Positions 25,000 to 53,999 of a stretch of 64,000 bases of DNA are shown here, in pieces. Source of the stretch: Fibrobacter sp. UWB11 (GTDB taxonomy: Bacteria > Fibrobacterota > Fibrobacteria > Fibrobacterales > Fibrobacteraceae); assembly GCF_900143015.1 (NCBI RefSeq), contig NZ_FSRT01000003.1, positions 62,001-126,000 on the forward strand. The letters run 5' to 3'. A program made the translations under genes and the position numbers. Under the pieces are notes generated by a model that was not told the origin of the DNA, ran no database searches, and was given only the letters and a program-made list of their open reading frames with translations. Numbering within the stretch: the first letter of the stretch is position 1; the number at the start of each line of letters is the position of its first letter.

Positions 25000-25015
25000 T
25001 ATCACAAATCCATAC

Positions 25016-26032
25016 TTACTTTTTATCGAACTTTAACGGCAAGGTTACGCGAGTTACATCATCTGCCTCATCAAAAGTCCATGTGGAAATTGCGTCACAT
25101 ATTGCTTTGTCAAATTTTTCATTTCCTGTTGATGATGACACTACTTCAATTTCACTAATTTTTCCATCGGGCGCAATAGTAAATTTTACTACGATGTCGT
25201 ATTGAATTTCTGCATCTGGATGTTCACTGTTTTTTACTTCTTTTAAACGAGGCGCCTGCATTCGGTATTTCTTACGAATACTTGAAAGTTTTGGTTTGTT
25301 TTTATCGACAATCTCTTTTACATGCGAAGCTTTTCTTCTTTTAGCAGGCTTCTTTGAAAAGTCAGGATCACTTATTCCATCCCATTTTAAAGGTTTATGT
25401 GCAGAGTATGAAAGCTTTGAGTCCGTGATGTGCAACCATTGTTTATTGCAAGAATGCTTAGAACTTTCCCACGATTCAATCTGTTCCTTGCTGTATTTTT
25501 TGAGCAGAAGATTCTTATATACCTTATCGCTAAATTCTTCCTCTTTAGCAAGCAACCTTATCTTCGAGAATCCGGCGGCCTTAAGTTTTCCAAAAAACTT
25601 CTTGTATTTGTAAATACTTTCATCCTGATACGGGAACGAGACGTTTATTTCATCGCGGTCGATTTTATCAGCATTTTTCTTGCGCATTTCTTTAAGGATG
25701 GCGATTACGGAGTCCGACGGCGCCTGAGAAACGCCATAAACTCTAGCCCAAACAGGGACTTCACGAGAAATATCGCTTGTAAAAATACGGGTGGAACTAG
25801 CATCAACTTCAATCGAAGCAATTCTACCACCAACATGGCGGTCAACAACAAAGTAGCCATCAAGAATAAGAAGATTAAGGCCAGTCGTATTCGCTTTACA
25901 GAACTCATTGCTTTTCACGTCATCACCAATTAATTCTGCTAAGTATTCTCCAATTCCTGTAAACAGGGAACTCGAGGACTGCGCATATAAAACGGCAGTT
26001 AACGATAAAAGCAATGCAAGAACAAACTTCAT
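25016..26032 (-). CDS. Secreted protein with TonB/AgmX-like C-terminal domain
   Basis: The ATG at 26032 starts a signal peptide (MKFVLALLLSLTAVLYAQSS), giving 338 residues. The last 90 residues (IQYDIVVKFTIAPDGKISEIEVVSSSTGNE, then AICDAISTWTFDEA) match the C-terminal domain of TonB-like and AgmX/PglI proteins. Unlike true TonB there is no N-terminal anchor or Pro-rich stalk, so this is probably a periplasmic protein that borrows the fold. The middle (residues 90-200) is unrecognised. It may head a three-gene operon running to 23074. Confidence 0.65.
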   Translation of the reverse strand: MKFVLALLLSLTAVLYAQSSSSLFTGIGEYLAELIGDDVKSNEFCKANTTGLNLLILDGYFVVDRHVGGRIASIEVDASSTRIFTSDISREVPVWARVYGVSQAPSDSVIAILKEMRKKNADKIDRDEINVSFPYQDESIYKYKKFFGKLKAAGFSKIRLLAKEEEFSDKVYKNLLLKKYSKEQIESWESSKHSCNKQWLHITDSKLSYSAHKPLKWDGISDPDFSKKPAKRRKASHVKEIVDKNKPKLSSIRKKYRMQAPRLKEVKNSEHPDAEIQYDIVVKFTIAPDGKISEIEVVSSSTGNEKFDKAICDAISTWTFDEADDVTRVTLPLKFDKK

Positions 26033-37555: not shown

Positions 37556-39652
37556 ATGGCTGCATCTTCTAAAAAAGAAGAAACTGACCTCTTTGATTTA
37601 TTAAAGGAATTCGTCAAAAATTGGAAAATCATGGTTCCGTGCATAATTCTTGCCGGAATTATTGGCGTTTTTGTCGCCATGTGGATTCGTCCGGTTTACA
37701 AGGTAGACGCCCTGCTCCAAATCGAATCCAAGAATAACAAGAGTGTCGGCTTAATGGGCGGACTTCCCAGCCTCTTTGCCAGCGCAAGCCCTGCTGAAAC
37801 CGAAATAGAACTCATTTACAGCCGTCAAATCATCGGCGAAGCTGTGGAAAAGTTGCGTTTACAATACACGGCAACACCGATAAACAAGATGGACAGATTG
37901 TTGCACCACGAAGGCCGCATGGAACTCAGCCAATTCGAAGTGCCTTGGAAATCCATCCCGAAGGATGAAAAAAGGGGACCTTGGATAGCAACAGCTGTAG
38001 ACAGCTCTTCATTCGACCTGTATGATCACAATAACAATAAAATCTTAACAGGAACTGTTGGACAAACATATAGAGTTCCTTACGCTGGAGACACACTCAT
38101 CTTTAGCGTATTCCACATGGATGCAACTGCCGGACAAAAATTCAAGCTCAACAAATTGGAACGTCTTGACGCTATTGCAAAATTCAAAAAGGCATTTGAA
38201 GTCAAGGAAAAGAGCAGAAAGACCGGAATCTTGGAATTCAGCTATCAGGACATCTACCCTGACCGCGCTACAAAAATCCTTAACGAGATTGCAACATCTT
38301 ATTTGAGACAGAACGTAGAACAGCGAAACGCCGAAGCACAAAAGACGCTTGAATTCTTAGAAAAGCAGCTTCCCGACGTCAAAGCCCAAATGGACAGTTC
38401 GCTACTCAAGTTCAACACCTATCGCAACAAAGTCGGTTCCATTGACATTGGTGCAGAAACGCAACTGATTTTGGAAAAGCGCAACAAGTTGCAGCAAAGC
38501 TTGCTGGACTTGCAGCAGAAAAAACAAAGCGCAGTCCGCCTTTTCCAGCCGGAACATCCGACCATCAAGACCTTGGAAGATCAAGAAAGCAACTTGAAAC
38601 GCGAGCTCGCAAGCAACTACGCAGCAACAAAGAAACTTCCGAATACACAGCAAGAAGTTTTGAAACTGACGAATGAAGTTGACATGAGTAAGCACATGTA
38701 CACCACCATGCTCAACAACATTCAACAGCTTAAACTCGTTTCTGCCGGTGAAGTGGGTTCCGTCCGCATTATCGATTTTGCCGAAGAAGTTTCCAGTCCT
38801 ATAAAGCCCAAGAAATCCATGATTGTATGCGTTGCTTTATTCATCGGTTTACTCTTTGGTACACTTATCATCTCGATCAAGAGCAAATTCAACAACGGTG
38901 TCCGAGATGCGAACTTTATTGAACGCGAAACAGGGTACAGCGTTTACGCCAAAGTACCGAAGGGGAACCCCAACGGAACTAAAGGCACTCGCCCGCTCGC
39001 TGTAGTCGAACCCGATGATGTGGCAATCGAATCGCTCCGTGCATTACGCAGTTCTCTTGAATTTAGCATGGAAGACGAAAGCAAATCCATTATTGGTGTC
39101 AGCGGTCTCATCCCTGGAGTCGGTAAAAGCTTTATTTCAGTCAATCTTGCAGCGCTATTCGCAGGATTAGGCAAAAGAGTCCTTCTCATCGATGCAGACC
39201 TCCGCAAAGGTCGCCTGCATAAAGAATTTGGAATCAAGCGCGATAAAGGACTTTCTCAGATTCTTTTACACACAGCAACTCCCGCTGAAGTCATCCGCAA
39301 AACGGAAGTTCCAAATCTTGAAGTCATGCAATGCGGCAACGTTCCGAGCAACCCCTCCGAACTGCTCGGTTCCAGGCATTACGCCGCCATGATCGAAGAG
39401 TTAAAACAGCAGTACGATCTCATCATCATCGATACTCCGCCGATAATGCTTGTTACTGACGCCGCTCTCGCCTGCCGCGTTGTATCTGAAATCGTTATGG
39501 TCATTGAGTACAACCGCCATAGCATTGACGCTATCAAGGATGGCATGAAGCAATTGCTCAAGGGCAACAACGACGTTCACGCAAGCCTCGTGATCAACAA
39601 GTACGAACACGGGCATAGCGATGGATACGGCTACAAATACGGGAAGTATTAA
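37556..39652 (+). CDS. Polysaccharide co-polymerase with BY-kinase domain (Wzc-type)
   Basis: GGTGG precedes the ATG. The 698-residue protein has a Wzz-type region with a transmembrane helix at about 25-45, a long periplasmic coiled region, a second helix at about 420-440 and a cytoplasmic tyrosine-kinase domain. Walker A is GLIPGVGKS (517-525), Walker A' [10 protein letters not shown] (about 543-552) and Walker [10 protein letters not shown] (621-629). The C-terminus has a tyrosine cluster (Y683, Y691, Y693, Y695, Y698), the usual autophosphorylation tail. Such proteins control chain length and export of capsule or exopolysaccharide. Wza and a Wzb phosphatase are not in the window. Confidence 0.9.
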
Positions 39653-39668
39653 TAAATCGAAAGATTTA

Positions 39669-40946
39669 TTATTTCACAGGTTCGAATTTACGGGCAATTT
39701 TCCTTATAAGCGGTCCGTTTAACCAATATAACGTTTTTTCATTGAACTTCGTTAATGTTGGCGTGACCACTTGATAAGGGTAAGAAGTTTCTCGATTGGT
39801 TACCAGCAATACTTTATTCACGTATTTTGACAAACGATCGAGTTCTTCCGTAGTCGGATCCGCCTTGACATAAATGCATTTGGCATTTTTCACGTTGAAT
39901 CTTTTCATGCCGTCGTTCCAACTTTCTAATGCAATTTTCCGGGAATCCAAATTTCGGAAATGTATTTCGATATCAAAGTTTTCAACGGCTGCCATCGAGA
40001 AGAAATCATCCAAATCATTTTGATGCTTTGATTCAGACGATCTAATAAACTTCAAATTAAAGTCTTTTACATAAGACAGGTTGTCAACAACATTGAAAAA
40101 GTCATCATCATAAAGGCTTACTTCCGTAAACGGAGAGTGCGATGATGTATTGCAAGAATGGTAGTAATAGTGTCCTAAAGGAATGTTTGAAATGATTGAA
40201 TAAGGATGCGTGAAATAAAAATATTTTTTATAAACCGAGAAAACACTTCTACCAAAAGTTTTCAGTTTGTTTTTTAAATCTCTTTTAATTTGAATGGGCT
40301 CTTTTTTCAACCACGAGCCCGCAAAGTGGTGAATCGAATACGTATTTTCGGTAACCTCAAGTTTTTGCGTATCCCAAGTCTTTGGACTAAACCAATCAAC
40401 AGGGAACACATTGACAACATCCTTGTCGTAATCAAATTCAGATTGATTTTTTATAAACCGCAATTCATAATTAGACTCAATGCACTTTCTAAAAATAGCG
40501 GGCATAGGAGTCATTTGCACGGCACCGTCAGCTGTTATAAATTCTCTGTCTTTGTAGCGATTGTACAAATCGTCTATCAGGCTCCAATGTTTTTCGCATC
40601 CCAAAGTTGCAGCCTCAATTCCCTTCGGCGTGTTTTCCATGCCAATGAAATAGGGCAAATGAAGCAAGTCATCGAACGATTTTAAAACTTCAACATCACT
40701 ATCTAGATATATGCCGCCATAATTGGATAAGGCGTAAAGTCGTATGTAATCAGCGGCAAAGGCGTACTTTCGTTTTTCGAACGCCTGGTCAACCCATTTG
40801 GCAGTACCTTTAGGAAATCTCTTGAAATCCCATTTCCAAATTTCATAATCGGGTAATTTTTCCTTCCATGAATTCATGCATTTCTGGATAGATTCTGGAT
40901 AGGGATCATCACTAAGCCAACAGAAATGGATTATCTTGGGGATCAT
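39669..40946 (-). CDS. GT32-like glycosyltransferase with extra C-terminal DUF1919-like region
   Basis: The first 220 residues are a GT32 (OCH1/capsular sugar transferase) domain: IPKIIHFCWLSDDPYPESI, WVDQAFEKRKYAFAADYIRLYAL and the DXD motif GGIYLDSDVEVLKSFDD. The C-terminal 190 residues (ISNIPLGHYYYH, then FFNVVDNLSYVKDF, NFDIEIHFRNLDSRKIALESWNDGMKR) resemble DUF1919, a family found in exopolysaccharide loci. The product is 425 residues. GGAGAATCC precedes the ATG. It converges on the Wzc gene with a 16-bp gap. The sugar transferred is unknown. Confidence 0.75.
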   Translation of the reverse strand: MIPKIIHFCWLSDDPYPESIQKCMNSWKEKLPDYEIWKWDFKRFPKGTAKWVDQAFEKRKYAFAADYIRLYALSNYGGIYLDSDVEVLKSFDDLLHLPYFIGMENTPKGIEAATLGCEKHWSLIDDLYNRYKDREFITADGAVQMTPMPAIFRKCIESNYELRFIKNQSEFDYDKDVVNVFPVDWFSPKTWDTQKLEVTENTYSIHHFAGSWLKKEPIQIKRDLKNKLKTFGRSVFSVYKKYFYFTHPYSIISNIPLGHYYYHSCNTSSHSPFTEVSLYDDDFFNVVDNLSYVKDFNLKFIRSSESKHQNDLDDFFSMAAVENFDIEIHFRNLDSRKIALESWNDGMKRFNVKNAKCIYVKADPTTEELDRLSKYVNKVLLVTNRETSYPYQVVTPTLTKFNEKTLYWLNGPLIRKIARKFEPVK

Positions 40947-40960
40947 AGGATTCTCCTAAT

Positions 40961-42502
40961 TTAAAAAACTTTTTCCTTTATCTTTTTCAACAAATAGGCG
41001 CGGTCTAGCTTAGACAAGATAATGTAAGCACCAGTAACTATGCACACAACCGTTACTAATGAGAAAGCCAAAGCCAGCTGAGCCCATGAGGTAGGTTCAA
41101 AAAAGTGCTTTATACCAAAACAAATTACCAAACATATGATAAAATAAGCTAGTGCCTTAAAGAGGTTTTTATAGAACGTAGTCTTTGGCAAAAGCAGGCA
41201 ACGAGCACCATACATAGGCAAAAATACAAAGCCTCTGATTATACCACAGAAAGAGCGGGTTCCGGCCAAAACGTACAACCTCATTTCAGAAGATTCGACA
41301 ATAAACATCGAAGCGAAAACAATCAAGAATACGGTGACGTTATTGCCTAACATGAACAGCGTAGAATACTTCAATTTATTTGTTATAGTGAATATATTCC
41401 AGAAAGATTCAAGAGGCAAAGTATACGCTAACGCAAAGGTACCTAAAATAGTAAGGAATATCAAATCATCAGCATTTTCGCTCGGGAGCCACAACCTATA
41501 GAATGAATCGCCATAAACATAAAGACACGTTAACGGAATCGCAGTAAAGAAAGACAGAATTCGAATAGACTTGTGACATTCATTGAGCAACTCGTCATGT
41601 TTCTTCTCGGCAAAGTACCTCGTCATCGTAGGCGCAAACACCGCGGATATCGACTGAAAGAGTCCTAAAATAATAACAGGAACATTTTTTGTAATTGCAA
41701 AATATCCCATTTCAATCATGCCAATATACAGGTTTGCAAGCAGCAAATCAAAGCCTTGACCGAGGATTTCACCTAGTCTCGAAATCAAGCTCCACACGCC
41801 CGATTTCAAAAGCTCTACAATTTTGCTAACCTCAAAGTTTTCTTTTTTTACACCAAGTTCTGGCGTTAAAACGCTTGTGAACCTATAGTTTGCAAACGCA
41901 GTGTATATAGTGAGAAGCATTCCTGCCAAACCAAGATACCAAACATGGGGCTTAAAGAAACTGAACAATAAAATCAGGGACAAAGCCTTTATTGCTGTTC
42001 CAATAATAGTACGGACATTACTTAAATCAAGTCTATTTTTTATAAACGTTGCGATAGTCCATGTTCCTGCGAGAAGGCCTATAATATTGTTTATCGCCAT
42101 AAGGGCAAACAACAATTTAACATCAAACACCAAATTTTCTGGTATATTGATGAGGTACTCTAGCCATACAATACACAAAGAAACAACGAACGTGATGACG
42201 AATGCAAGAATTATGTTCGAAAGGAATACCGAAGCATAATATTTATTGGCCTCATCGATATTCCCTTCACAATATTTAATGGTGATAAAACGTCCGACCA
42301 TTGAGTTCAAAGCAATAGTTATCAGACTTGTATAAGTAAGAATATTTGCAGACAATCCGATAAACCCGTAAGCTTCTGGGCCAATGGTTCTTACGATATA
42401 CGGAGTCAACCCAAAACGAATACCCAAACCGACGACAAAAGTTATTAACGATGCCGCCATATTGACAACGAATTGCCTGTTTTTCGATGAATGAGTGGGC
42501 AC
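40961..42502 (-). CDS. Wzx-like polysaccharide flippase
   Basis: The 513-residue protein has about 14 hydrophobic segments in the MATE/MVF-type pattern of O-antigen and capsule flippases. These carry undecaprenyl-linked repeat units across the inner membrane. It appears to begin with GTG at 42502; an internal ATG at 42460 is a possible alternative. It lies 14 bp upstream of the GT32-like gene on the same strand. The gene is markedly AT-rich compared with rimO or purD. Confidence 0.8.
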   Translation of the reverse strand: MPTHSSKNRQFVVNMAASLITFVVGLGIRFGLTPYIVRTIGPEAYGFIGLSANILTYTSLITIALNSMVGRFITIKYCEGNIDEANKYYASVFLSNIILAFVITFVVSLCIVWLEYLINIPENLVFDVKLLFALMAINNIIGLLAGTWTIATFIKNRLDLSNVRTIIGTAIKALSLILLFSFFKPHVWYLGLAGMLLTIYTAFANYRFTSVLTPELGVKKENFEVSKIVELLKSGVWSLISRLGEILGQGFDLLLANLYIGMIEMGYFAITKNVPVIILGLFQSISAVFAPTMTRYFAEKKHDELLNECHKSIRILSFFTAIPLTCLYVYGDSFYRLWLPSENADDLIFLTILGTFALAYTLPLESFWNIFTITNKLKYSTLFMLGNNVTVFLIVFASMFIVESSEMRLYVLAGTRSFCGIIRGFVFLPMYGARCLLLPKTTFYKNLFKALAYFIICLVICFGIKHFFEPTSWAQLALAFSLVTVVCIVTGAYIILSKLDRAYLLKKIKEKVF

Positions 42503-42666
42503 TTTCTATTACTCTTTATAAAACTCCAAATTGCAAACGCAAAGATAGCAAAAGACAAAAACCACGGCAAAACAAGCTTCCACATTAAGGCTATTTAGAT
42601 GGTCGCAACCAAGCCCCTAAGCCCACCCTTACATGGATAATAACTATATTTTAATTGAGGTTTTTC

Positions 42667-43533
42667 ATGTCAGCTCGCAAACACGCATTTCTTATTCTTG
42701 CCCATAGCAATCCCCAATTTGTAGCAAGATTAGTAAACAGCTTAGTAGCCCCCAATCACTATTTTTTCATACACATCGATAAAAAATCAAAGGAAGATTT
42801 TTCCTGCCTTAAGCAGATTCCAAACTGCACTTTTTTAAAGAAGCGCGTGAGCTGCAACTGGGGTGGTTTTAGCCTTGTAGAAGCAACACTAAACCTTTTG
42901 AAAGAAGCAAAAGCCGCAGATAACTTTTCCTACTTTCATTTACTTTCCGGTACCGACTATTTCTGCTCCACAAACGAAGCCTTCGATAAGTTCTTCGAAA
43001 ACAACACAAAGAGCTATTTAGAAATTAGAGACGGAAGCCAATTCGAATGGCGTCTTAAGATATACACATTTAACGACTTCATCAATCGAAGAGGCCGTTG
43101 GAAAAACATTCTTTGGCATACAGACGACATCCAAAAAAAGCTCATCCGTCATATTACCATTCGAAAGCCCCTTAAAGAAACGTTCTATTACGGATCGCAA
43201 TGGTTTTCCCTAAGCAATGAAGTCGTCGATTACGTATTGGACTTCTGCAAAAATAATCGATGGTTCGTTCGTCGCTTTTACTTAACTTTCGTGCCGGACG
43301 AATCGTTCTTCCACATGATTATCTTGAACGGACCTTTGGCAAACCAAATCGTCCCCAAGAATCTCCGCTTTATCGACTGGACCAGGAAAGTTCCAAAAGA
43401 ACCGCTTCCCCGCACTCTCGATATCAACGACTATAACGACATTATTCAAAGCGGATGTTTCTTCTGCCGCAAAATATCTACAACCAAATCGGCATCACTA
43501 ATAGACAAATTTGATGAATTGAGGAACAAATAA
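42667..43533 (+). CDS. GT14 family beta-N-acetylglucosaminyltransferase-like (core-2/I-branching type)
   Basis: GAGG lies 6 nt before the ATG at 42667. The 288-residue protein has HAFLILAHSNPQFVARLV, FFIHIDKKS, CNWGGFSLVEATLNLL, FHLLSGTDYFC and YGSQWFSLSNEVVDYVL, the motifs of the core-2/I-branching (GT14) family. It also has the VPDESFFHMII acidic motif. Bacterial members build capsule or adhesive glycans, often adding GlcNAc or xylose. It starts the rightward three-gene block. Confidence 0.85.
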   Translation: MSARKHAFLILAHSNPQFVARLVNSLVAPNHYFFIHIDKKSKEDFSCLKQIPNCTFLKKRVSCNWGGFSLVEATLNLLKEAKAADNFSYFHLLSGTDYFCSTNEAFDKFFENNTKSYLEIRDGSQFEWRLKIYTFNDFINRRGRWKNILWHTDDIQKKLIRHITIRKPLKETFYYGSQWFSLSNEVVDYVLDFCKNNRWFVRRFYLTFVPDESFFHMIILNGPLANQIVPKNLRFIDWTRKVPKEPLPRTLDINDYNDIIQSGCFFCRKISTTKSASLIDKFDELRNK

Positions 43534-43538
43534 TCAAT

Positions 43539-44519
43539 ATGGGCCAGTCTCTCATTTCCATAATTGTTCCCATTTACAAAGTCGAGCCTTATTTGCATCG
43601 ATGCGTAGACAGCATCATTAATCAAACATATCAAGACCTTGAGATTATCTTGGTCGATGACGGATCTCCAGATAACTGCCCCCAAATTTGCGACGAGTAC
43701 CAGCAAAAAGATTCTAGAATCAAGGTCATTCACAAGCCAAATGGCGGCCTGTCCGATGCTAGAAACGCAGGGCTAGACATTGCCCAAGGCGAATACATCA
43801 TTTTCGTGGATTCGGATGATTTCATCCACCCTGAAATGGCTGCAGTTTTATTTGAACTGTTGCAAAAGAACGGTTCCGACATTGCCATTTGCAACTTCGT
43901 TCCATTTACACACGATGTAACAACATCAAACGAAGCCCCCGTTGTCGAAACGCTTTCCGGAGAAGAAGCCGCTTTACGACTTTATCAAAAAGAATATACA
44001 ACACAATCCGTTGTAGCTTGGGATAAGATTTACAAAAAGAGCGTCTTCAACAATCTTCGTTTTAAAGTAGGTAAATTCAACGAAGACGAATTCTTTTCAT
44101 ACAAAGCGATGCTTTCGTCATCGAAAATTACATATACGTCACAGGAACTATATTACTATTTCCTCCGCGATACCGGAATTTCAAAAGCCATCACAAATCC
44201 AAAATCGCTAGACGGACTTGAAGCAAAACAAGAGGCAATCGCCTATTACAGGGAAAATAAACACTTTGCTCTTTTGAGAGCAGCCGTCTCAAGCTTTTTA
44301 AATTTCACCGCCAAGAGATATTGTTTTGTGCACCATCAAAAGGGCAACCACAAAAATTTATTGGCAGAAATCAAAAAGCATCACTTCAAGGTTTTCAGCG
44401 AAAACAAATTCGTTCTGGACAAAAGACTAACTAGGCGAGCACAAGTATTCCAGTTCATGCCGTTATTATATTGGTTCTTTATAAAATACGATAAGTTCAG
44501 GCAGCAAATTCAAAAATAG
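43539..44519 (+). CDS. GT2 family glycosyltransferase
   Basis: The 326-residue protein has the GT2 GT-A fold: LISIIVPIYKVEPYLHRCVDSIINQTY, ILVDDGSPDNCPQICDEYQQ, NGGLSDARNAGLD and the metal-binding IFVDSDDFIHPEM. The later VVAWDKIYKKSVF and FNEDEFFSYKAM fit capsule GT2 enzymes. Membrane helices are absent. It is separated from the GT14 gene by 5 bp and from the next gene by 8 bp, so the three are co-transcribed. Confidence 0.92.
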   Translation: MGQSLISIIVPIYKVEPYLHRCVDSIINQTYQDLEIILVDDGSPDNCPQICDEYQQKDSRIKVIHKPNGGLSDARNAGLDIAQGEYIIFVDSDDFIHPEMAAVLFELLQKNGSDIAICNFVPFTHDVTTSNEAPVVETLSGEEAALRLYQKEYTTQSVVAWDKIYKKSVFNNLRFKVGKFNEDEFFSYKAMLSSSKITYTSQELYYYFLRDTGISKAITNPKSLDGLEAKQEAIAYYRENKHFALLRAAVSSFLNFTAKRYCFVHHQKGNHKNLLAEIKKHHFKVFSENKFVLDKRLTRRAQVFQFMPLLYWFFIKYDKFRQQIQK

Positions 44520-44527
44520 GGGTAATC

Positions 44528-45892
44528 ATGCTTGTTTTATCGTTATTCGCATATATTCTTTTTTTCGCCTTAGTCTTTTTGGTCATCAAGGGGAACCGGG
44601 AGCAGCAATTACTCTCTCTCATTCTTGTAAACATTCTCTTTTACATCAATATTGCATTAATTGCAAAACCAGAACTGACCCCCTTCCAGCTTATCCCCTA
44701 CATTTTTTTCGCAAAAGAAATTCTCTTTAACAGCAGCGAATTTAGAAGAACGTGCGCATCGTTTCCTGTAAAAACAGGTTTGTTAGTAATCTTTATCGCT
44801 TATTTCTTGACAACTTATTCAAATGGCGGTAACTCGCATGACTTCTACAGTTCTTTACGTTATTGTTTCGACAAATATATACCCATAATTGCAGTATTCA
44901 TCTGCGCGAAAGATATCGATGAAAAAATTTTGACAAAGCACTTGTTCTTCTTCTTCCTAATTTATTCCGGTTGCGGACTTCTTGAATATTTGTTAAACCA
45001 CAACTACATTCGAGAAATCATCGCAACAGCCTTCCCGTCCACAAAAAATACAGACATGTTCGGCCCCGCAGGAATTACGAAAGGATTATACTCTTCTAGC
45101 TGGAGACCGAGAATTTCTATTACAACAAAACATCCAACGGCTTTAGGAACACTGCTTAGCACCATGTTCCTATTCACCTTGGCTTATCTTAAAATAGCCC
45201 CGGAAAAGTTTGACATAAAGAAAGTAAAAATAGTCCTTGCAGTTTTGGCAGGAGCGGTGATATTATCAGGGTCGAGAACAGCGCTTGGTTGCATATTGTT
45301 AGGTTCTTTAATCTATTTCACAATGCAACTTTCACTTAAAAAAAGACTTTTTGCAATCATCTTTTATGGTTTTATCGCCCTTCAATTGTCTTCATTTGCC
45401 TTAGAATCATTTGAAGAAAAAGAAGGCGGAAGTTCTCTTTCTCTTAGGCAACAACAGCTTTTGTTTACGCTCATCGAATTTGCAGAAAGGCCAGTATTCG
45501 GCCATGGTCTTTACTTTACCAACCATACGATTTTAGCAAGCGATGACGATGGCAACAGAATGTATTACTCTAAGGAAGAAACAGAGGGGCTTGAATCCAT
45601 CGTCTTCTACACCCTCTTGGATATCGGTTTATTCGGAGCGCTCGCTTTACTGATATTCTATGGGCAAATGCTCTTTTACTTCTATAGACATCGGAAAGCA
45701 AACGAGCATTTGGCCACGCAAGGAATATTGCAAACATCAATGCTCATTGTGTTCCTAATCCTTTCGGGAGAAATCGGAAGAAATACCGAAATGAGCATCC
45801 TCTTTATCGGAACATCACTTGGACTGCTACAAAAATCTATTGAAAGTGATCAGCACGATCTCGTGATATCTTCAAGCGACGAAAACGAATAA
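44528..45892 (+). CDS. O-antigen ligase/Wzy-polymerase-like membrane protein
   Basis: The 454-residue protein has about 11-12 hydrophobic segments and a large loop between late helices containing RPVFGHGLYFTNHTIL, the general layout of Wzy polymerases and WaaL ligases (O-antigen ligase family). Earlier, ISITTKHPTALGTLLSTMFLF and ILSGSRTALGCILLGSLIYF match the conserved SRTA region of that family. It would join repeat units in the periplasm. Its 3' end overlaps that of the convergent lyase gene by 56 bp. Confidence 0.8.
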   Translation: MLVLSLFAYILFFALVFLVIKGNREQQLLSLILVNILFYINIALIAKPELTPFQLIPYIFFAKEILFNSSEFRRTCASFPVKTGLLVIFIAYFLTTYSNGGNSHDFYSSLRYCFDKYIPIIAVFICAKDIDEKILTKHLFFFFLIYSGCGLLEYLLNHNYIREIIATAFPSTKNTDMFGPAGITKGLYSSSWRPRISITTKHPTALGTLLSTMFLFTLAYLKIAPEKFDIKKVKIVLAVLAGAVILSGSRTALGCILLGSLIYFTMQLSLKKRLFAIIFYGFIALQLSSFALESFEEKEGGSSLSLRQQQLLFTLIEFAERPVFGHGLYFTNHTILASDDDGNRMYYSKEETEGLESIVFYTLLDIGLFGALALLIFYGQMLFYFYRHRKANEHLATQGILQTSMLIVFLILSGEIGRNTEMSILFIGTSLGLLQKSIESDQHDLVISSSDENE

Positions 45893-46607
45893 ACGAATCC
45901 CATCGAGGCGCATAATTATCGTCGTTTCCTCCATGGAATGTCGAGAAATAGAATTTGTCTATTTTCTGATCACGCCCATTTCTAAAGAGCATTGAATCTT
46001 CTTTCACGACCAGGCTATCATCAAACCACGTTTGAATATAGCCGTTTCTAGAATAATTATTTAGAGAATCAACATCATTCAGCCCAACATGCATTACAAT
46101 TTTATGCCACTGGCCTCTGGTGATTTTCTTCTGATCAAACTTACCATTTAAATCCCACTTGATGTTATCTGCATATTTCCCTTTCTGGGGGGCCGAATAA
46201 ACGTATTGCGTCAAGAAGCCGTCCTTCTTCCACATAATACGATTGCTCCAGCCATCGGCTTCTTTCGGCGTATTGCCACCGGTATAGCATTTTCCACCAC
46301 AAAATCCAGGCAGTTTTCCACCACTTCTAAAATCAAAATTCTTTTCGAAATAAACTTCGTACGAGCACCACAATTCTTCGGCACTATCCTTTTCAAGCGG
46401 AATCGTAAACTGCAACGCACAACCATTTTTTCTAGATGTGCCAAAACAACCTTTAGGGTACTTCAATCGAAGATAAGTGCCACTTGAATCAGGCACTAAT
46501 TCTGCCATTGAAGAATTCTCGATACTTGCAACAATGCCACCCACAACATCTGCAGGAATGGACAAATTTGAAAAAAAGAATTGCAAGAAAAGAGCTAGAT
46601 AGAGCAT
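45837..46607 (-). CDS. Secreted PL14-like polysaccharide lyase
   Basis: The ATG at 46607 follows GGAGGG by 7 nt; the first 20 residues are a signal peptide. The 256-residue protein shows CSYEVYFEKNFDF, FRSGGKLPGFCGGKC, a GWSNRIMWKKDG motif, GQWHKIVMHVGLND, NGYIQTWFDD and FYFSTFHGGNDDNYAP. These resemble the PL14 jelly-roll lyases that cut mannuronate or glucuronate polymers. Placed inside a synthesis locus it may trim or release the polymer. The gene overlaps the 3' ends of both the Wzy-like gene (45892) and the upstream glycosyltransferase (46595). The substrate is an inference. Confidence 0.65.
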   Translation of the reverse strand: MLYLALFLQFFFSNLSIPADVVGGIVASIENSSMAELVPDSSGTYLRLKYPKGCFGTSRKNGCALQFTIPLEKDSAEELWCSYEVYFEKNFDFRSGGKLPGFCGGKCYTGGNTPKEADGWSNRIMWKKDGFLTQYVYSAPQKGKYADNIKWDLNGKFDQKKITRGQWHKIVMHVGLNDVDSLNNYSRNGYIQTWFDDSLVVKEDSMLFRNGRDQKIDKFYFSTFHGGNDDNYAPRWDSFIRFRRLKISRDRADHFQ

Positions 46608-47719
46608 AGCATTTCCCTCCACATCGGCAAAACGTTTTCTATGTCAAACCGACTAGATAACTCCAAGCAATTCAAAGCAACGTTCGCTCTCATGTTATCA
46701 TCTTTCATTAAATCTAACATCTTTTGAGCATACATCTTTAAATTTCCATAAGGAATCAAGAAGCCATTTTCTCCATCGAATATAATATCCTTGATAGATG
46801 CATAGCTATCAAACGCCAAAGGAACAACTCCAAATTGCTGAGATTCCGTAAGAGTCAACCCCCAGCCTTCAAACGACGATGTCATCATAGACATCGCAGC
46901 CGTTTCATAAAATGGTCGCGGATTTTGTTTCCCCATAAATTGGACATTCTTCAAATTCATTCTTGCAGCAAGCTTTTTATAGTCCTGCAAATTTTCGCCA
47001 TCACCGATAATTTTCAATGTCCAAGTTTCTGCAATCTTGCTTTTCTCCACTTCTCGCCATATTTTCAAAGCTAGAGAAATTCTTTTTTGAGGCTCCTTCA
47101 TTCTCGAAACAATCAGCACTTCATTCTTTTTCTGAGCTATAATCGATTTGTCATTTCGCACGTCAAATGACAATATATTCGGGATAGCAGTTATCTTATC
47201 CGAAGATACATGAAGATTTTTCTGGAAGAAGGGGGCAAACGAATTCGAAAGCAATAAAATTTTAGACACCCTCGGGATTATCTTACCCCAACGAGCATGA
47301 AAGCGTTTCAATTCTTTCCAATAAAAAATAGGGAAAAAAGCCATCCTGACAAAGCGCTTTATTTCATCACTAACAGAACCGAACGTTTTCGTGGAAGCCA
47401 CGCGCCAGGACTTGACGAATGTAGGCGGCGCAGTATGCCATGCGACAATGTACGGAATATTTTTCGCCTTGTTGCTCAGATATCGACTCACAACACAATC
47501 ACAAGCAAGTTGCTGTACAACAACATCAATGGACTTGTCTAAAAAGAATCGTTCTACATCAACAGTTTTACCTTCAAACAAAGTTTCGGTTCCTGTATCC
47601 TGCAAATAGAACGATTGTATTCCATATTTCAAAAGCCCCCGCATAACAGAAACCGTTACGCGTTCTACGCCACCAGCCATCGCATCTAAAGGATTATTAA
47701 AAACAAACAGGACATTCAT
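46595..47719 (-). CDS. GT4 family glycosyltransferase
   Basis: The ATG at 47719 follows the neighbour's stop almost directly. The 374-residue protein begins NVLFVFNNPLDAMAGGVERV, the N-terminal Rossmann entry of GT-B enzymes, and has NEVLIVSRMKEPQKRISLAL, GDGENLQDYKKLAARM and SSFEGWGLTLTESQQFGVVPLA, the GT4 nucleotide-sugar motif with its glutamates. Acceptor and donor are unknown. It is one of four consecutive minus-strand transferase genes. Confidence 0.88.
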   Translation of the reverse strand: MNVLFVFNNPLDAMAGGVERVTVSVMRGLLKYGIQSFYLQDTGTETLFEGKTVDVERFFLDKSIDVVVQQLACDCVVSRYLSNKAKNIPYIVAWHTAPPTFVKSWRVASTKTFGSVSDEIKRFVRMAFFPIFYWKELKRFHARWGKIIPRVSKILLLSNSFAPFFQKNLHVSSDKITAIPNILSFDVRNDKSIIAQKKNEVLIVSRMKEPQKRISLALKIWREVEKSKIAETWTLKIIGDGENLQDYKKLAARMNLKNVQFMGKQNPRPFYETAAMSMMTSSFEGWGLTLTESQQFGVVPLAFDSYASIKDIIFDGENGFLIPYGNLKMYAQKMLDLMKDDNMRANVALNCLELSSRFDIENVLPMWREMLCSI

Positions 47720-47720
47720 T

Positions 47721-48944
47721 TTAAAGTTCCTTAATTGCATTGAAATTTCTCAAGCAATTCTGCGTATCATTATACAAAAAGAACGACTTCATCCGTTCCA
47801 TATACTGATCCGACATTCTGCAATCTTGGCTTAACATAGATTCCACATGCACGACGACATCATCCAAGGATTTTGCGACCGGGCCGAAAGCATCCTGATC
47901 CGGATCAAAATAGCCTTTTCCCTGGTGTCCGCTTTGATATGCTTCACGGTCAAACTGGTACAACAGAATAGGCTTTTGCATATATGCAAAATCAAACTGT
48001 ACACTTGAATAATCCGTAATCATCATGTCACATTCAATCATCAACTTTTGTACATCATAATTCTCAAATGATGCAGCAATCACATTCTTTTCAGGAATTA
48101 TGAACAAATGCAAGAATTTTTGCATTTCGAAGTGAGGATAGAAAATCAGTTCATAGCCATATTGGTCCAGCAAACTTAGCAAACGTTCACTATTCAATAG
48201 CGAATTAAACGATTTAAAATAATCCGTTTTTTCAAAATCTTCTGCCGTACATTTCGATAAATAATGTCTCCAGGTCGGCATCAGCAGTATTTTTTTTGTT
48301 TTTTGATGAGTCAACGGAAGAGCGTCATACCTAGCAAAACCTAAAGATTTCACACATTGTGCAGGATGACCAAATCTTTCAATGACAAATTGTTCTTCCC
48401 TTTTCGAGACCGTGACAAAGAGGTCAAACCGAACCTTATCTCGGTGCAACCAAGGTCCATCTGCTTGAGTCACGCCATGCTGAAGGAACACGTATTTTCC
48501 TTTTACAAATAACTTCTTCAAGAAAGAAACATGATCCATTCGCAAAAAGAGATTTCTTTCAGGCGCCCCACCAAATATATGCGCACTCACTTTTTTCTTT
48601 GCGACCAGATAGCATAAATAATGTTGCCAAGACCCATGATAAACAATTCGGCCAACATCCTGAACATTTTTTAAATCAGGCGAATCTTTTGTAATAATAT
48701 AGACCGCATTAACATCAGGGCACTTCTTACAAACATAACGGAACAGATGCATTGCATTATCTCTAGCATCGTTTCCACGTTCTGCAAAGACCCATAAATC
48801 TTTATACTTCCTGTTTTTCCCAATAAAAACAAGAAGTATCTTGGCTATACAGCATTTAGCAAATATTCCTAACCACTTTATATATTTTCTCAAGCCGTTT
48901 TTTTTGACAAACGAAAGAAAGGTTTCTTTTTTCATATTAGGCAT
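47721..48944 (-). CDS. CDP-glycerol glycerophosphotransferase-like (TagF/TagB family)
   Basis: The 407-residue protein has the PF04464 signatures: KYVFLQHGVTQADGPWLHRD, ILLMPTWRHYLS, FYPHFEMQKFL and IECDMMITDYSSVQFDFAYMQKPILLYQFD. These enzymes transfer glycerol- or ribitol-phosphate from CDP-alditols, as in teichoic acid and in some Gram-negative capsules. No CDP-glycerol synthesis gene is visible nearby, so the donor may come from elsewhere. The ATG at 48944 overlaps the stop region of the upstream gene, with no clear ribosome binding site. Confidence 0.85.
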   Translation of the reverse strand: MPNMKKETFLSFVKKNGLRKYIKWLGIFAKCCIAKILLVFIGKNRKYKDLWVFAERGNDARDNAMHLFRYVCKKCPDVNAVYIITKDSPDLKNVQDVGRIVYHGSWQHYLCYLVAKKKVSAHIFGGAPERNLFLRMDHVSFLKKLFVKGKYVFLQHGVTQADGPWLHRDKVRFDLFVTVSKREEQFVIERFGHPAQCVKSLGFARYDALPLTHQKTKKILLMPTWRHYLSKCTAEDFEKTDYFKSFNSLLNSERLLSLLDQYGYELIFYPHFEMQKFLHLFIIPEKNVIAASFENYDVQKLMIECDMMITDYSSVQFDFAYMQKPILLYQFDREAYQSGHQGKGYFDPDQDAFGPVAKSLDDVVVHVESMLSQDCRMSDQYMERMKSFFLYNDTQNCLRNFNAIKEL

Positions 48945-48946
48945 TG

Positions 48947-50014
48947 CTAGAAGTGATACAAAGAAATCCAAGACTTTTTATAATTTTTCCAAGACCGTTT
49001 CTCGATATAGTCAAAAGCATTCTGTTCCTTTATGCGAAGCTTACCATCAGCGAAATCTTCTTTCACTTGTTTAAACACGCTTATAAGGGAATCTTCATGC
49101 GACTGGGCAGAATCATAATCATACGAATACACAGCATCCGTAGATTTTAAAACATCGCGAATGCATCCAATTTCCGGGCATATCATTGTTTTGCCATAGG
49201 AAAAAGCCATCCACAACGTACCTGAATTCAAAGTGCATCGTTTATCATACGGAGCAACCAGCAAGAGCGATTGGGTCAAATAGGCTTCCATCTGGTCAAC
49301 CGGAATAAAATTAAAGTCCAAAATGATATTTTCATTTCCCTGAGTAGCTTGTTCAATCTTATTCCTATACGATAAATCACGGCAAGATCCACAAACGAGC
49401 AGCACAAAATCACTTTGTCCAATATTTGACTGTTCAAATGCACGAACTAGAACATCAATATTCTTGTAGGGATCAATTTTTCCACAAAATAACACAATCT
49501 TCTTTGATTCTGCTATTCCATATTTTTCCCTAATATTCAAATCCGATTTAGGATAATTCTGTATATAATCCCCATGCGGAATACAGACAACTTTATTCCT
49601 GTATTTTTCTAAAGCAGGGATTTCATCAAACGTTGCATCACATAAAATATGAATACGGGTGCTCCATTTCAGCAACGATCTCATCATTATTCTAGAAAAA
49701 GACTTTCCTAGTTCCTGCCCATGGACTTCCTTGTTATGGATTGTCCAAATAATAGGCTTTCCTCGCAACCTAAAATAAATCAAGGTAGCAAAGCGAAAAA
49801 TAAAGTTCATCCAAACTTTAATCCGGCTTTTGCCACGAATATTTTCTAACCAATTTAGATGGACAACATCATAAAAGAAAAGGCTACCCCATTTTCGTTT
49901 TATGGCTTCATTAACACCAACAACGGTGTATTCGTCGGAAATAACACTAGTTATATTCCCCAAATAACTATTCTGAGGAGTCTCTTTTTGCGGAAAAACT
50001 AGAATTCTAATCAT
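48947..50014 (-). CDS. GT4-like glycosyltransferase
   Basis: The 355-residue protein shows a GT-B layout: IIWTIHNKEVHGQE, VCIPHGDYIQNYP, IVLFCGKIDPYKNIDVLVRAFE, LLVCGSC and a late APYDKRCTLNSGTLWMAFSYGKTMICP, where the usual glutamate motif of GT4 is replaced by a shorter SGTLWMAF pattern. It is therefore a divergent member, similar to GumH-type and fungal-like enzymes in that region. It ends 3 bp before the next gene's start. Substrates are unknown. Confidence 0.8.
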   Translation of the reverse strand: MIRILVFPQKETPQNSYLGNITSVISDEYTVVGVNEAIKRKWGSLFFYDVVHLNWLENIRGKSRIKVWMNFIFRFATLIYFRLRGKPIIWTIHNKEVHGQELGKSFSRIMMRSLLKWSTRIHILCDATFDEIPALEKYRNKVVCIPHGDYIQNYPKSDLNIREKYGIAESKKIVLFCGKIDPYKNIDVLVRAFEQSNIGQSDFVLLVCGSCRDLSYRNKIEQATQGNENIILDFNFIPVDQMEAYLTQSLLLVAPYDKRCTLNSGTLWMAFSYGKTMICPEIGCIRDVLKSTDAVYSYDYDSAQSHEDSLISVFKQVKEDFADGKLRIKEQNAFDYIEKRSWKNYKKSWISLYHF

Positions 50015-50073
50015 CAACCAATAATAGACCGGATCTCATTTATCAATTGTTCTGAAGCAAAGACAGTTCCTTT

Positions 50074-51285
50074 TTACAGTCCAAGTAACTTCTTGTACGC
50101 GCTAATCAGCTTCGGTTTTTCGTAATCCCAACATAGTTCGTTTTGCACACGCTTGCGACCAAAGGCGCCCATTTCCGCCGCCTTTTCAGGATTGTCCAAA
50201 AGCCATAGGATTTTTTCGGCAAAGTCATCTGTATCGGTATTCTTTGCATAGAGCGAAGCTTCCTGTGCAGAGAACTTACCTTCCTTGAGCGTAAACTGCA
50301 CAATCGGCTTTCCGAACGCCATATATTCCATGATTTTGTTCATGGTGGACTTGTCATTCATTTCAGAAGGCAAATCCGGATTGACGCACACATCAGCCGT
50401 GTTCATCACATCGGCCAAGAATTCGTCACTCACGCGACCAGGGAATTCCACATAATCGGTAAGCGCCATCGTCTTGTTCAATTCGCGAAGTTCTTCCAAA
50501 GAAGGTCCCCCGCCCATAATGCAAAAGCGGATGTCCTTGCGGCCCTTCTTGTTCACGATGTAATCGACAGACTTGAGCAAAAGATCAATGCCTTCCTGCT
50601 TGCCCATCACGCCGATATAGCCAATCAGATACTTAAAGCCTTTCTTAACTTCCGGCTTGGCGGGGCCAATTTTCAACTTCGAGAGGTTTGGACCGCTGCG
50701 CACAATCGTCACATCCTCTTCGCGTTTTTTGCCACGGCGCATCGCAATTTCCTTATACGATTCATTCGTGACAATGGCATGCTTTGCAAAAAAGTACGTA
50801 AGGCGTTCCACCAGAATCATCGCGCGGTAGCCCAAGCCTTTCTTGCCAAATTTTGCAATCCAGAGTTCCGGATTAATATCGTGGTGGTCAAAAAGGAACC
50901 TGCAACGCGTAAATGTAAAGAACAAGAACGCCGCTATAAAAATCAAGTCAGGCGGATTGCAAGCATGAATCACATCCTGTACGCCCTGCTTTCTAAACAC
51001 CTTGAACAAGAGACGAGTCTCATGATAAAGTGCACAGAAATATTCCTTGAAATAATCAAGCGAACGCTTTGCTTCTGGCAACGGATGGCGATAAATTTTG
51101 ATACCATCAAGTTCCTCATATTCCTGAGGATACTTCTTTGTCTTCGGGCAAATTACGGTTACTTCGGCACCTGCTTCATGCAAAGATGTCGCTTCCTGCC
51201 AAACACGGCGGTCAAAAGGGACCGGGAGATTTTCAACGACAATGCAAACTTTCTTTCCCGAAAGTTCCTTCAAAGACTGTTCCAT
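50074..51285 (-). CDS. GT4 family glycosyltransferase (WbuB-like)
   Basis: The ATG at 51285 is chosen; a TTG at 51300 would overlap the upstream gene. The 403-residue protein begins KVCIVVENLPVPFDRRVWQEATSLHEAGAEVTVICP and has FDHHDINPELWIAKFG, LIGYIGVMGKQEGIDLLLKSV, MGGGPSLEEL and NDKSTMNKIMEYMAFGKPIVQF. These are characteristic of a group of bacterial GT4 enzymes of the WbuB type that act early in capsule or O-antigen assembly. The gap to the AlgD-like gene is 5 bp. Confidence 0.87.
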   Translation of the reverse strand: MEQSLKELSGKKVCIVVENLPVPFDRRVWQEATSLHEAGAEVTVICPKTKKYPQEYEELDGIKIYRHPLPEAKRSLDYFKEYFCALYHETRLLFKVFRKQGVQDVIHACNPPDLIFIAAFLFFTFTRCRFLFDHHDINPELWIAKFGKKGLGYRAMILVERLTYFFAKHAIVTNESYKEIAMRRGKKREEDVTIVRSGPNLSKLKIGPAKPEVKKGFKYLIGYIGVMGKQEGIDLLLKSVDYIVNKKGRKDIRFCIMGGGPSLEELRELNKTMALTDYVEFPGRVSDEFLADVMNTADVCVNPDLPSEMNDKSTMNKIMEYMAFGKPIVQFTLKEGKFSAQEASLYAKNTDTDDFAEKILWLLDNPEKAAEMGAFGRKRVQNELCWDYEKPKLISAYKKLLGL

Positions 51286-51290
51286 AGAAT

Positions 51291-52604
51291 TTACCAGCAA
51301 AAACCTTCGTAATTAGAAAGCGTTTCTACAGACGGATCCTTCAAGCGAACGAGATCCAAGAAATGAACTTCAGGTTTCTTACGAATCAGTTCCGAGATCT
51401 CAGGATTTCGAACGGTAATAATGACAAGTGAATTATTTTTCACAACATCTTCAACTTCATTCACAAGAAGCGGAAGCAGGTGCGGAATACGCTTATTCAA
51501 TTCACGCAGGTTTGTTTCTTTTTCGCGAGCGATATTCAAATAGCGGTCATAGATGCTCAACGAGCAACCCTTGCCCAAGACGCCTTCGGCCAAACGAATT
51601 GCGGCCGAATTACGCAAGTCATCCGTTCCCGCCTTAAAAGTAAGCCCAACAATGCCCACAGAACGCACGCCTATTTCTTGCACGCGGTCTAGCACTCGGC
51701 GAATGTGCATGTTATTGCTGTTTTCAATCGACGAAAGAACAGGAACTTCGACCTGATGAGATTCGGCCAAGAAATTCAAACCACGCAAATCCTTAGGAAG
51801 GCAAGAGCCGCCGTAAGCGAATCCCGGTTTAAAGTAATACGGCGAAATGTTCAGCTGGGTATCCTTGCAGAACAAGTTCATAACACTATGGCTATCGATA
51901 TCGAGCTTTTTACAAATTGCGCCTATTTCGTTTCCAAATGTAACCTTCAAGGCATGGTATGAATTATTGACAAACTTGATAATTTCGGCAACTTTCGGCT
52001 CGACTTCTACAATTTCACTACCCAAAGGAGCGTAAAGATTTCTAAGAGCATCAAGGGCTCGACGACATTCGCACCCAATAACAGTCAACGGAGGATTCAA
52101 ATAATCGGCAACAGCCATACCCTCACGGAGAAACTCTGGATTCGAGGCCACAGCAAAATTGATTCCTTCACGTTTTCCCGAAACCTTTTCAATCAATTCC
52201 GCAGCAGCAGCATTCGTTCCAGGAGGCACGGTACTACGAATAACGACGATATGGAATGTCGACTTAGAACGAATAGCTTCGGCAATCGAACGCACAGCAG
52301 ACATCAAATATGTTGTATCAAGGCGTCCGTCTGGAGCATTAGGTGTACCGACACAAAGGAACGATACATCCGTTTTTGCAACCGCCTCAACAGCTGAAGA
52401 TGTAGCCGAAATAAGTCCGGCCTTATAGCCATCCTGCAAAACTTCATCAATATCCCTTTCGACAATTGTCGGAAGTCCGGCAGCAATTCGATTTACCTTA
52501 TTAACATCGACATCGCAGCCAATCATTCGATGACCTAGCTTTGCAAGGCAGGCGATTCCAACACAACCGACATACCCTAATCCAAATACACTAATAGAAG
52601 CCAT
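51291..52604 (-). CDS. AlgD-like UDP-glucose/GDP-mannose dehydrogenase
   Basis: The 437-residue NAD-dependent dehydrogenase opens ISVFGLGYVGCVGIACLAKLGH and has FLCVGTPNAPDGRLDTTYL, SNPEFLREGMAVADY, Cys-268 in GFAYGGSCLPKD, and LTFKAGTDDLRNS. It oxidises a nucleotide hexose to the uronic acid in two steps. Many positions, the exact placement of Cys-268, and the ending EGFCW recall Pseudomonas AlgD (ending EGICW), which makes GDP-mannuronate for alginate. UDP-glucose as substrate remains possible. It is followed by a second, quite different dehydrogenase of the same superfamily on the same strand. Confidence 0.8.
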   Translation of the reverse strand: MASISVFGLGYVGCVGIACLAKLGHRMIGCDVDVNKVNRIAAGLPTIVERDIDEVLQDGYKAGLISATSSAVEAVAKTDVSFLCVGTPNAPDGRLDTTYLMSAVRSIAEAIRSKSTFHIVVIRSTVPPGTNAAAAELIEKVSGKREGINFAVASNPEFLREGMAVADYLNPPLTVIGCECRRALDALRNLYAPLGSEIVEVEPKVAEIIKFVNNSYHALKVTFGNEIGAICKKLDIDSHSVMNLFCKDTQLNISPYYFKPGFAYGGSCLPKDLRGLNFLAESHQVEVPVLSSIENSNNMHIRRVLDRVQEIGVRSVGIVGLTFKAGTDDLRNSAAIRLAEGVLGKGCSLSIYDRYLNIAREKETNLRELNKRIPHLLPLLVNEVEDVVKNNSLVIITVRNPEISELIRKKPEVHFLDLVRLKDPSVETLSNYEGFCW

Positions 52605-52628
52605 AATATTTATCTCTTAGTAAAATTT

Positions 52629-53999
52629 TTACTCCGCTTTGCCCTTACCGATGCTAGTCACTTCAAAGCCGATCTTCCTGAGGGCGTCCGCATCCAAGAT
52701 GTTGCGACCATCAAATACAAAGGCAGGTTTCGCCATCGAGCTGTAAATGCGTTTCCAGTCAAGTTCAGCAAAGCATTTCCATTCTGTGCAAACGACAACG
52801 GCGTGAGCACCTTCGGCGGCCTTGTACGGGTTTTCTTCAAATGAAACCTGGTCAATCACATCCTTAAGGTCGCGCTTGGCATCCGGGATAGCCTTCGGAT
52901 CAGTCACGACAGGCAGTGCGTGTTCGGCAAGCAAGTCGCGAACCACGAGGTTCGCCGGGCTTTCACGGGTATCGCCCGTATTGGCCTTGAACGCAAAACC
53001 GAACACGGCAATTTTCTTGCTGGCGATAGTATTGAACATTGTTTCGAGCATGCGGTCCACCACGCGGTGAGTCTGCCACTCGTTAATTTTCACGACGCTT
53101 TCCCAATAGGCAGCCACTTCCGGTAGTCCGTAATAACCGCAAAGGTAAACGAGATTCAAAATGTCCTTCTTGAAGCAGCTACCACCAAAACCGATAGAAG
53201 CCTTGAGGAACTTAGGACCGATACGGCGGTCCTTACCCATTACATAAGCGACTTCGTCGACATCTGCACCGGTGCGTTCACAGAGAGCGCTAATCGAGTT
53301 GATGGAACTGATGCGCTGTGCGAGGAATGCATTTGCAGTAAGCTTCGTCAGTTCGGAGCTCCAGAGGTTCGTCGTAAGTATGCGATCGCGCGGCACCCAG
53401 TGAGCATAAACATCAACGAGCTTCTGGCAGGCAGCAAGGCCCGATTCCGTCTGATGAGAGCCAATGAGCACTCGATCGGGCTCAAACAAGTCATTAATGG
53501 CGGTACCTTCTGCAAGGAATTCCGGATTCGAGAGCACTTCAAAGTGAAGGCCCTTATCGTTTGAATTCAAGATGCGTTCCATGGCCGCAGCGGTGCGGAC
53601 CGGGAGCGTCGACTTTTCGACGATGATCTTTCCTTCGTCAGCAATTTCCAAAATGTTTCGGGCAGTCTTTTCCCAATACTGGAGGTCAGAAGCCTTACCA
53701 GCGCCATGTCCAAACGTTTTCGTCGGGGTATTCACCGACACAAAGATAATGTCCGCTTCCTTGATGGCTGCAGGAATATCCGTGCTGAAGAACAGATTAC
53801 GGCCACGAGCGCGCTTTACAACATCATCCAAGCCGGGTTCAAAAATCGGGAGATTTTCGCTATTCCAAGCGTCAATGCGAGATTGGTTGATATCAACTAC
53901 GGTAACCTTAACATCGGGGCACTTGTCAGCGATAACAGTCATGGTAGGCCCACCGACGTAGCCTGCACCAATGCAAACAATTTTAGTTTCGAAACTCAT
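52629..53999 (-). CDS. ugd: UDP-glucose 6-dehydrogenase, eukaryotic-type
   Basis: The 456-residue enzyme makes UDP-glucuronate. It starts [19 protein letters not shown], has [49 protein letters not shown] and catalytic Cys-275 in [10 protein letters not shown], then [16 protein letters not shown]. These follow the animal and plant UGDH sequence far more closely than the bacterial Ugd/RkpK or AlgD types (human Cys-276 is one position off). This type also occurs in other bacteria, so recent transfer cannot be claimed. The ATG at 53999 lacks a Shine-Dalgarno sequence. It is upstream of the AlgD-like gene with a 24-bp gap. Confidence 0.9.

Follow-up and report, generated by a model that had tools for sequence, protein, structure and literature searches.

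Does the bacterium that builds an acidic surface polysaccharide also encode, within the same locus, the enzyme that cuts it? The question is raised by a 64,000-nucleotide stretch of Fibrobacter sp. UWB11 (contig NZ_FSRT01000003.1, positions 62,001 to 126,000; hereafter the window), in which the gene for a protein resembling polysaccharide lyases of family PL14 lies in a surface-polysaccharide locus with genes for an AlgD-like GDP-mannose 6-dehydrogenase (GMD) and a UDP-glucose 6-dehydrogenase (UGDH). The genes named there by a first-pass annotation, namely the PL14-like, AlgD-like (with its EGFCW end), UGDH, flippase, Wzy-like and Wzc genes, are all present according to profile and structure matches (Table 1). 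The explanation we favor, and consider probable, is a Wzx/Wzy-type locus in which GMD and UGDH would supply mannuronate and glucuronate, and an exported PL14 protein encoded beside the polymerase would cut the finished polymer at uronate. What the sequence shows directly is which genes are present, the families they match, the conservation of the catalytic positions and, across the genus, the association of the AlgD-like cassette with families of lyases, whereas the incorporation of uronate into the polymer is what we infer. Because related genomes hold unrelated lyase families near the AlgD-like gene, and given the gene set of the window, an acidic coat that can also be cut is likely.

The PL14 open reading frame spans 45837-46622 on the minus strand, with a probable start at ATG 46607 and GGAGG ahead of it. 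Its product scores 138.4 bits with the Pfam profile PF21294 (polysaccharide lyase 14), for which the curated cut-off is 27, and the predicted model has the β-jelly-roll of solved PL14 lyases; other jelly-roll proteins in the fold listing include toxin chains. No NCBIfam model matched the PL14 protein. Alignment to known lyases reveals that the catalytic lysine, arginine and tyrosines are all kept (K98, R123, Y135 and Y137), and both by profile and by catalytic residues the PL14 assignment of the first-pass annotation stands. The residues K143, M171 and Y185 that were mutated in complexes of Aly36B align with K98, M125 and Y135, and the position of the substrate-binding Gln120 of vAL-1 is occupied by K127. 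The protein would probably cut its polymer by β-elimination, with K98 serving as base as well as acid, while R123, Y135 and Y137 would line the site, by analogy with Aly36B and vAL-1.

The AlgD-like protein has the GDP-mannose 6-dehydrogenase 1mfz as its best solved relative (381 bits, residues 4-437), and the second structure match, 3vtf, gives 263 bits over residues 1-354 only; judged by structure-match bits over the full length, the protein is nearer AlgD than UDP-sugar dehydrogenase structures. It contains the catalytic cysteine C268 within GGSCLPKD and has the C-terminal sequence EGFCW. For this pattern of GGSCLPKD with a G-x-C-W end, 102 of the 106 homologues of at least 430 amino acids among the 120 matches listed end likewise. 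UGDH reaches 591 bits against 5vr8 and 2q3e, which we take to be the human (animal) enzyme, and 267 bits with 4a7p, the best structure outside that group. GMD is predicted to produce GDP-mannuronate, which may be used by the adjacent glycosyltransferase GT4c. A gene for mannose-1-phosphate guanylyltransferase/isomerase is present in the genome on a contig other than that of the window. This gene adjoins that for a Wza-type exporter at G000:C2:101798-104115 (L091, L162), and the pair may belong to a second polysaccharide locus.

A Pfam scan covered 18 window proteins encoded between 34 and 59 kb. None of these 18 belongs to the Alg8/Alg44 synthase or AlgE exporter families (the search covered these proteins alone), and on this basis the cluster is assigned to the Wzx/Wzy type; Pfam and NCBIfam profiles identify a flippase, a polymerase, a co-polymerase kinase and several glycosyltransferases. 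An alginate operon was accordingly rejected as a description of the cluster. Three matches to initiating transferases and two to Wza-type exporters occur elsewhere in the genome, all off the window contig. In the pathway that we propose, GDP-mannuronate and UDP-glucuronate would feed a repeat unit whose assembly falls to the GT4 and GT2 glycosyltransferases and the branching enzyme, Wzx would flip this unit and Wzy, with Wzc, would polymerize it. PL14, predicted to be exported, would then cut the chain at uronate, giving shorter chains or release of the coat, and the purpose may be shortening or shedding of the coat.

The comparison that carries this reading comes from 80 Fibrobacter genomes, 74 of which have UGDH (E <= 1e-100) and 19 GMD. 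One locus was taken from each of 75 genomes (the 74 with UGDH, and G088), with a first stretch of at most 20 kb downstream of UGDH; G006 is covered by two 20-kb pieces, and coverage was extended in 16 of the 18 GMD genomes other than that of the window; in G084 and G096 the contig stops within the first stretch. Contig ends interrupt many loci, and among the 56 stretches without GMD, 9 are shorter than 15 kb, the shortest being 1.2 kb.

Strong matches to two lyase families unrelated to PL14 are confined to genomes with GMD. PF05426 is matched strongly (265-276 bits) in exactly 5 of the 80 genomes and PL8 (PF02278) is matched in exactly 6, so that one or the other is found in 11 of the 19 GMD genomes versus 0 of the 61 others (p = 7e-9, relatedness ignored). 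Ten of the 11 lyase genes share the contig of GMD, at a distance of 11-19 kb for PF05426 and 11-14 kb for PL8. The PF05426 protein, which no NCBIfam model matched, has the alginate lyase 3nfv as its closest solved relative (331 bits). For the PL8 protein the closest are chondroitinase AC, at 168 bits, and xanthan lyase, at 110 bits, and each of the six PL8 proteins passes both PL8 profiles, PF02278 and PF08124. Weak PF05426 matches are widespread (48 of 80 genomes at E <= 0.001), with 9 genomes above the cut-off and 5 above 30 bits, the sixth-best match (26.9 bits) falling within a heparinase II/III-like gene of G019.

That heparinase II/III-like gene is a regular companion of the AlgD-like cassette. 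GT4c follows GMD in all 19 loci and is absent from all 56 GMD-less loci, and the stretches with GMD contain the heparinase II/III-like gene in 17 of 19 cases, the GMD-less ones in 0 of 56. Counted by genome, with a search by one protein, it is present in 18 of 19 with GMD versus 6 of 61 without (p = 7e-12); in all six of the latter it is on a contig different from UGDH, and in G091 it is on a separate contig, the same one as the lyase gene of that genome. Its product scores 166 bits with PF07940 and 51 bits with PF16889 and has no obvious signal peptide. The same one-protein search found no match in the genome of the window. A homologue of the heparinase II/III-like protein encoded at L063:8375-10273(-), which may be a lyase, an epimerase or a protein of some other role, was detected in 24 of the 80 genomes. 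Some related GMD loci also encode FGE-sulfatase/DltD-like and CotH-like proteins with lipoprotein-like starts (L061:6985-9783(-), L061:9884-11296(-) and L064:13645-15180(+)).

In the 18 other genomes the UGDH-GMD-GT4c cassette is accompanied by the heparinase II/III-like gene and, mostly, by one exported depolymerase-type gene. Since these loci mostly have both, PL14 is better placed in the second slot, and its role as a substitute for the heparinase II/III-like protein was rejected. Across the 19 GMD loci the slot holds PF05426 in five, PL8 in six, an exported Exo_endo_phos protein in five and PL14 in one, and is empty in two (G032, with 24 kb that is partly masked, and G084, with 7.6 kb). 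No GMD locus carries two of the four, for which the chance under independent placement is 6.5e-5, relatedness ignored. The corresponding counts in the 56 GMD-less loci are 18 for Exo_endo_phos, two for PL14 and none for PL8 and PF05426; these are lower bounds from first stretches only, except for PL8 and PF05426, which were searched genome-wide. The exported Exo_endo_phos protein, encoded for instance at L062:1485-2342(+), L063:2994-3830(-) and L110:5873-6745(-), never occurs with PF05426, PL8 or PL14 and may be a depolymerase of phosphodiester-linked polymers.

Relatives of PL14 itself also lie in polymer loci. A pattern scan of species genomes yielded 21 loci encoding PL14 relatives, and members of the window clade occur in three of them, L070, L071 and L072, at 60-64% identity. 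In all three, GT4a and PL14 converge with Wzy and GT2, the branching enzyme comes next, and the Wzy-like proteins are 65-67% identical to that of the window; here as in the window, the lyase gene lies inside the polymer locus between GT4a and Wzy. A second PL14, 46% identical, is likewise found in a surface-polysaccharide locus in L077 and L078, on contigs as long as G083:C18 and G085:C4.

Several observations weigh against the favored reading. The N-terminus of PL14 is hydrophobic but has no basic residues, and of the earlier claim that the protein is secreted, what stands is this hydrophobic segment, the single indication from which export is predicted. The association statistics ignore relatedness among genomes. 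Exo_endo_phos, which is not a lyase, is frequent in loci lacking GMD, and this makes a slot devoted to uronates alone less likely. PL14 is found in 1 of 19 GMD loci versus 2 of 56 GMD-less loci (p = 1), so its pairing with GMD is a single case, the window, and was rejected as a general rule. Lastly, genes resembling PssD and PssE occur in 5 of the 56 GMD-less loci, and PL14 in 2 of these 5; G001, G013 and G086 carry such genes with no PL14 nearby. The earlier interpretation is supported in part: a uronate-containing surface polymer with its own lyase is well supported by comparison, through the PF05426 and PL8 lyases and the three further loci of the PL14 clade, but not through PL14 tracking the AlgD-like gene.

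As PL14 does not track that gene, glucuronate is equal to mannuronate as its candidate target. A possible reading, though clearly the less probable one, is that PL14 acts on the polymer made by its own locus but cleaves at glucuronate, and that the mannuronate supplied through the AlgD-like cassette lies elsewhere in the repeat and is irrelevant to PL14. L072, G083 and G085 have PL14 alongside UGDH and PssD/PssE-like genes, without GMD. The best NCBIfam models for the PssD/PssE-like proteins are PssD, PssE and the β-1,4-glucuronosyltransferase WelK, all below cut-off. Moreover, vAL-1 was crystallized with glucuronate, albeit as a substitute for mannuronate or guluronate (PMC9614988). However, the PssD/PssE-like pair, present also in L070, is absent from the window. 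In addition, AkAly30 and Aly36B carry the lyase number EC 4.2.2.3 (PMC8618178), so that mannuronate is equally known as a target.

Fibrobacter degrades polysaccharides, and PL14 could in principle serve feeding, acting on uronates from the diet or other foreign sources (alginate or glucuronan, for example), and sit in the locus by accident. A longer PL14 paralogue is indeed encoded away from the locus in 44 of the 80 genomes, that of the window included (it is split in G028). UGDH was detected in 40 of these genomes; the longer paralogue and UGDH are on different contigs in 39 of the 40 and 664 kb apart in G081. In a PL14 tree with 47 further unlabeled rows, however, six polysaccharide-locus rows and six of the longer paralogue fall on opposite sides of one branch with support 100/99. 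The PL14 and Wzy frames also overlap by the same 56 bp in all four loci of the window clade, and together these observations make a feeding role improbable. The longer paralogue (L069:9030-10106(-), G000:C1) has extra C-terminal sequence.

It is similarly doubtful that GMD and the lyases are associated by linkage only, in a block-inherited cassette without a functional relation between polymer and lyase. On the GMD tree PF05426 shows some clustering, with 2 changes, a number that 4 of 500 shuffles matched or undercut. For all slot groups together, however, at least 7 changes are required, where 3 would be the minimum; the mean after shuffling is 8.9, and 21 of 200 shuffles gave 7 or fewer. Moreover, the GMD proteins of G024 and G076 are identical, yet the former genome has a PF05426 lyase and the latter a PL8 lyase, and neither PL8 nor strong PF05426 is found anywhere else in the 80 genomes. 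A PL14 protein that is no lyase and instead binds or otherwise modifies the polymer is the least credible alternative, for although jelly-rolls are also found in binding modules and the fold relative Cip1 showed no convincing lyase activity (PMC3764139), the counterparts of the residues mutated in Aly36B are all present.

A lyase encoded with the polymer that it cuts has precedents. The AlgL gene lies within the alginate operon of Pseudomonas. As a uronate lyase of the alginate machinery (PMC4432689), AlgL resembles the window PL14 in being encoded with the machinery of its polymer, where mannuronate is made via AlgD, but it belongs to another lyase family and a synthase-type homopolymer, whereas the window combines PL14 with a Wzx/Wzy locus. 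RbmB of Vibrio cholerae is likewise encoded in a polysaccharide gene cluster and cuts that biofilm polysaccharide (PMC11637428); it differs in its predicted parallel β-helix and proven activity, the window PL14 being a jelly-roll known here by sequence. An alginate lyase gene also lies in the Klebsiella K14 capsule cluster, where its substrate is not known, and the excerpt describes no exchange of lyase families (PMC5320592). Alginate lyases of molluscs and viruses are generally PL14 (PMC8618178). AkAly30, from a sea hare, vAL-1, from a chlorella virus, and Aly36B (PL14/PL36) share sequence, fold and catalytic positions with the window protein, whose gene is next to that of a polymerase within a biosynthetic locus of a bacterium. 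Among the literature matches listed, none deals, in its title or the start of its abstract, with PL14 encoded in a surface-polysaccharide locus of a bacterium. Within the literature searched, two things are new, the putative role of PL14 as a polymer-locus lyase and the way in which unrelated lyase families replace one another around a single mannuronate-type cassette. Such lyases were previously known singly, and here one genus has the cassette repeatedly with unrelated families.

On cellulose, F. succinogenes reportedly has less polysaccharide and more protein at its surface (PMC4619616), which may point to a purpose for coat cutting. An enzyme that cuts the coat and is encoded with it would make the cause of this change directly testable. 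More tentatively, Fibrobacter loci could be modular build-and-cut systems, each with one polymer-matched exported depolymerase that is swapped along with the polymer module and strips the coat for a grip on cellulose; the depolymerases would be drawn from unrelated families, namely PF05426, PL8, PL14 and perhaps an Exo_endo_phos phosphodiesterase.

Table 1. Predicted genes of the surface-polysaccharide locus, with positions in the window
Feature	Coordinates	Strand	Basis and occurrence
PL14-type polysaccharide lyase, predicted exported	45837..46607	-	PF21294 profile
AlgD-like GDP-mannose 6-dehydrogenase (GMD)	51291..52604	-	1mfz 381 bits, GGSCLPKD C268, EGFCW end
UDP-glucose 6-dehydrogenase (UGDH)	52629..53999	-	5vr8 591 bits
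GT4c glycosyltransferase, next after GMD	50074..51300	-	Pfam
GT4b glycosyltransferase	48947..50017	-	Pfam; also in L070, L072
Glyphos_transf family protein	47721..48971	-	PF04464 130.7 bits; also in L070, L072
GT4a glycosyltransferase, immediately upstream of PL14	46595..47740	-	Pfam; also in L070, L071, L072
Wzy-like polymerase, convergent with PL14	44528..45892	+	PF04932 40.5 bits
GT2 glycosyltransferase	43539..44519	+	PF00535 149.7 bits
Core-2/I-branching (GT14-type) enzyme	42655..43533	+	PF02485 97.1 bits
Wzx-type flippase	40961..42502	-	PF01943 39.8 bits
DXD glycosyltransferase with DUF1919	39669..40946	-	PF04488 60 bits, PF08942 47.5 bits
Wzc-type tyrosine autokinase	37556..39652	+	PF02706, PF13807; TIGR01007 164 bits, cut-off 108

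With regards to its layout, the locus reads as a hybrid of the UGDH-GMD-GT4c cassette and a module that comprises GT4b, Glyphos_transf, GT4a and PL14 together with the convergent Wzy, GT2 and branching-enzyme genes. In L070 and L072, the module from GT4b to the branching enzyme is preceded by the PssD/PssE-like glucuronosyltransferase genes. Low G+C content inside the locus is in line with an exchanged module. G+C is 36-40% within 40001-50000 and 44-52% in the remaining window, with one further dip to 38% at 24001-26000.

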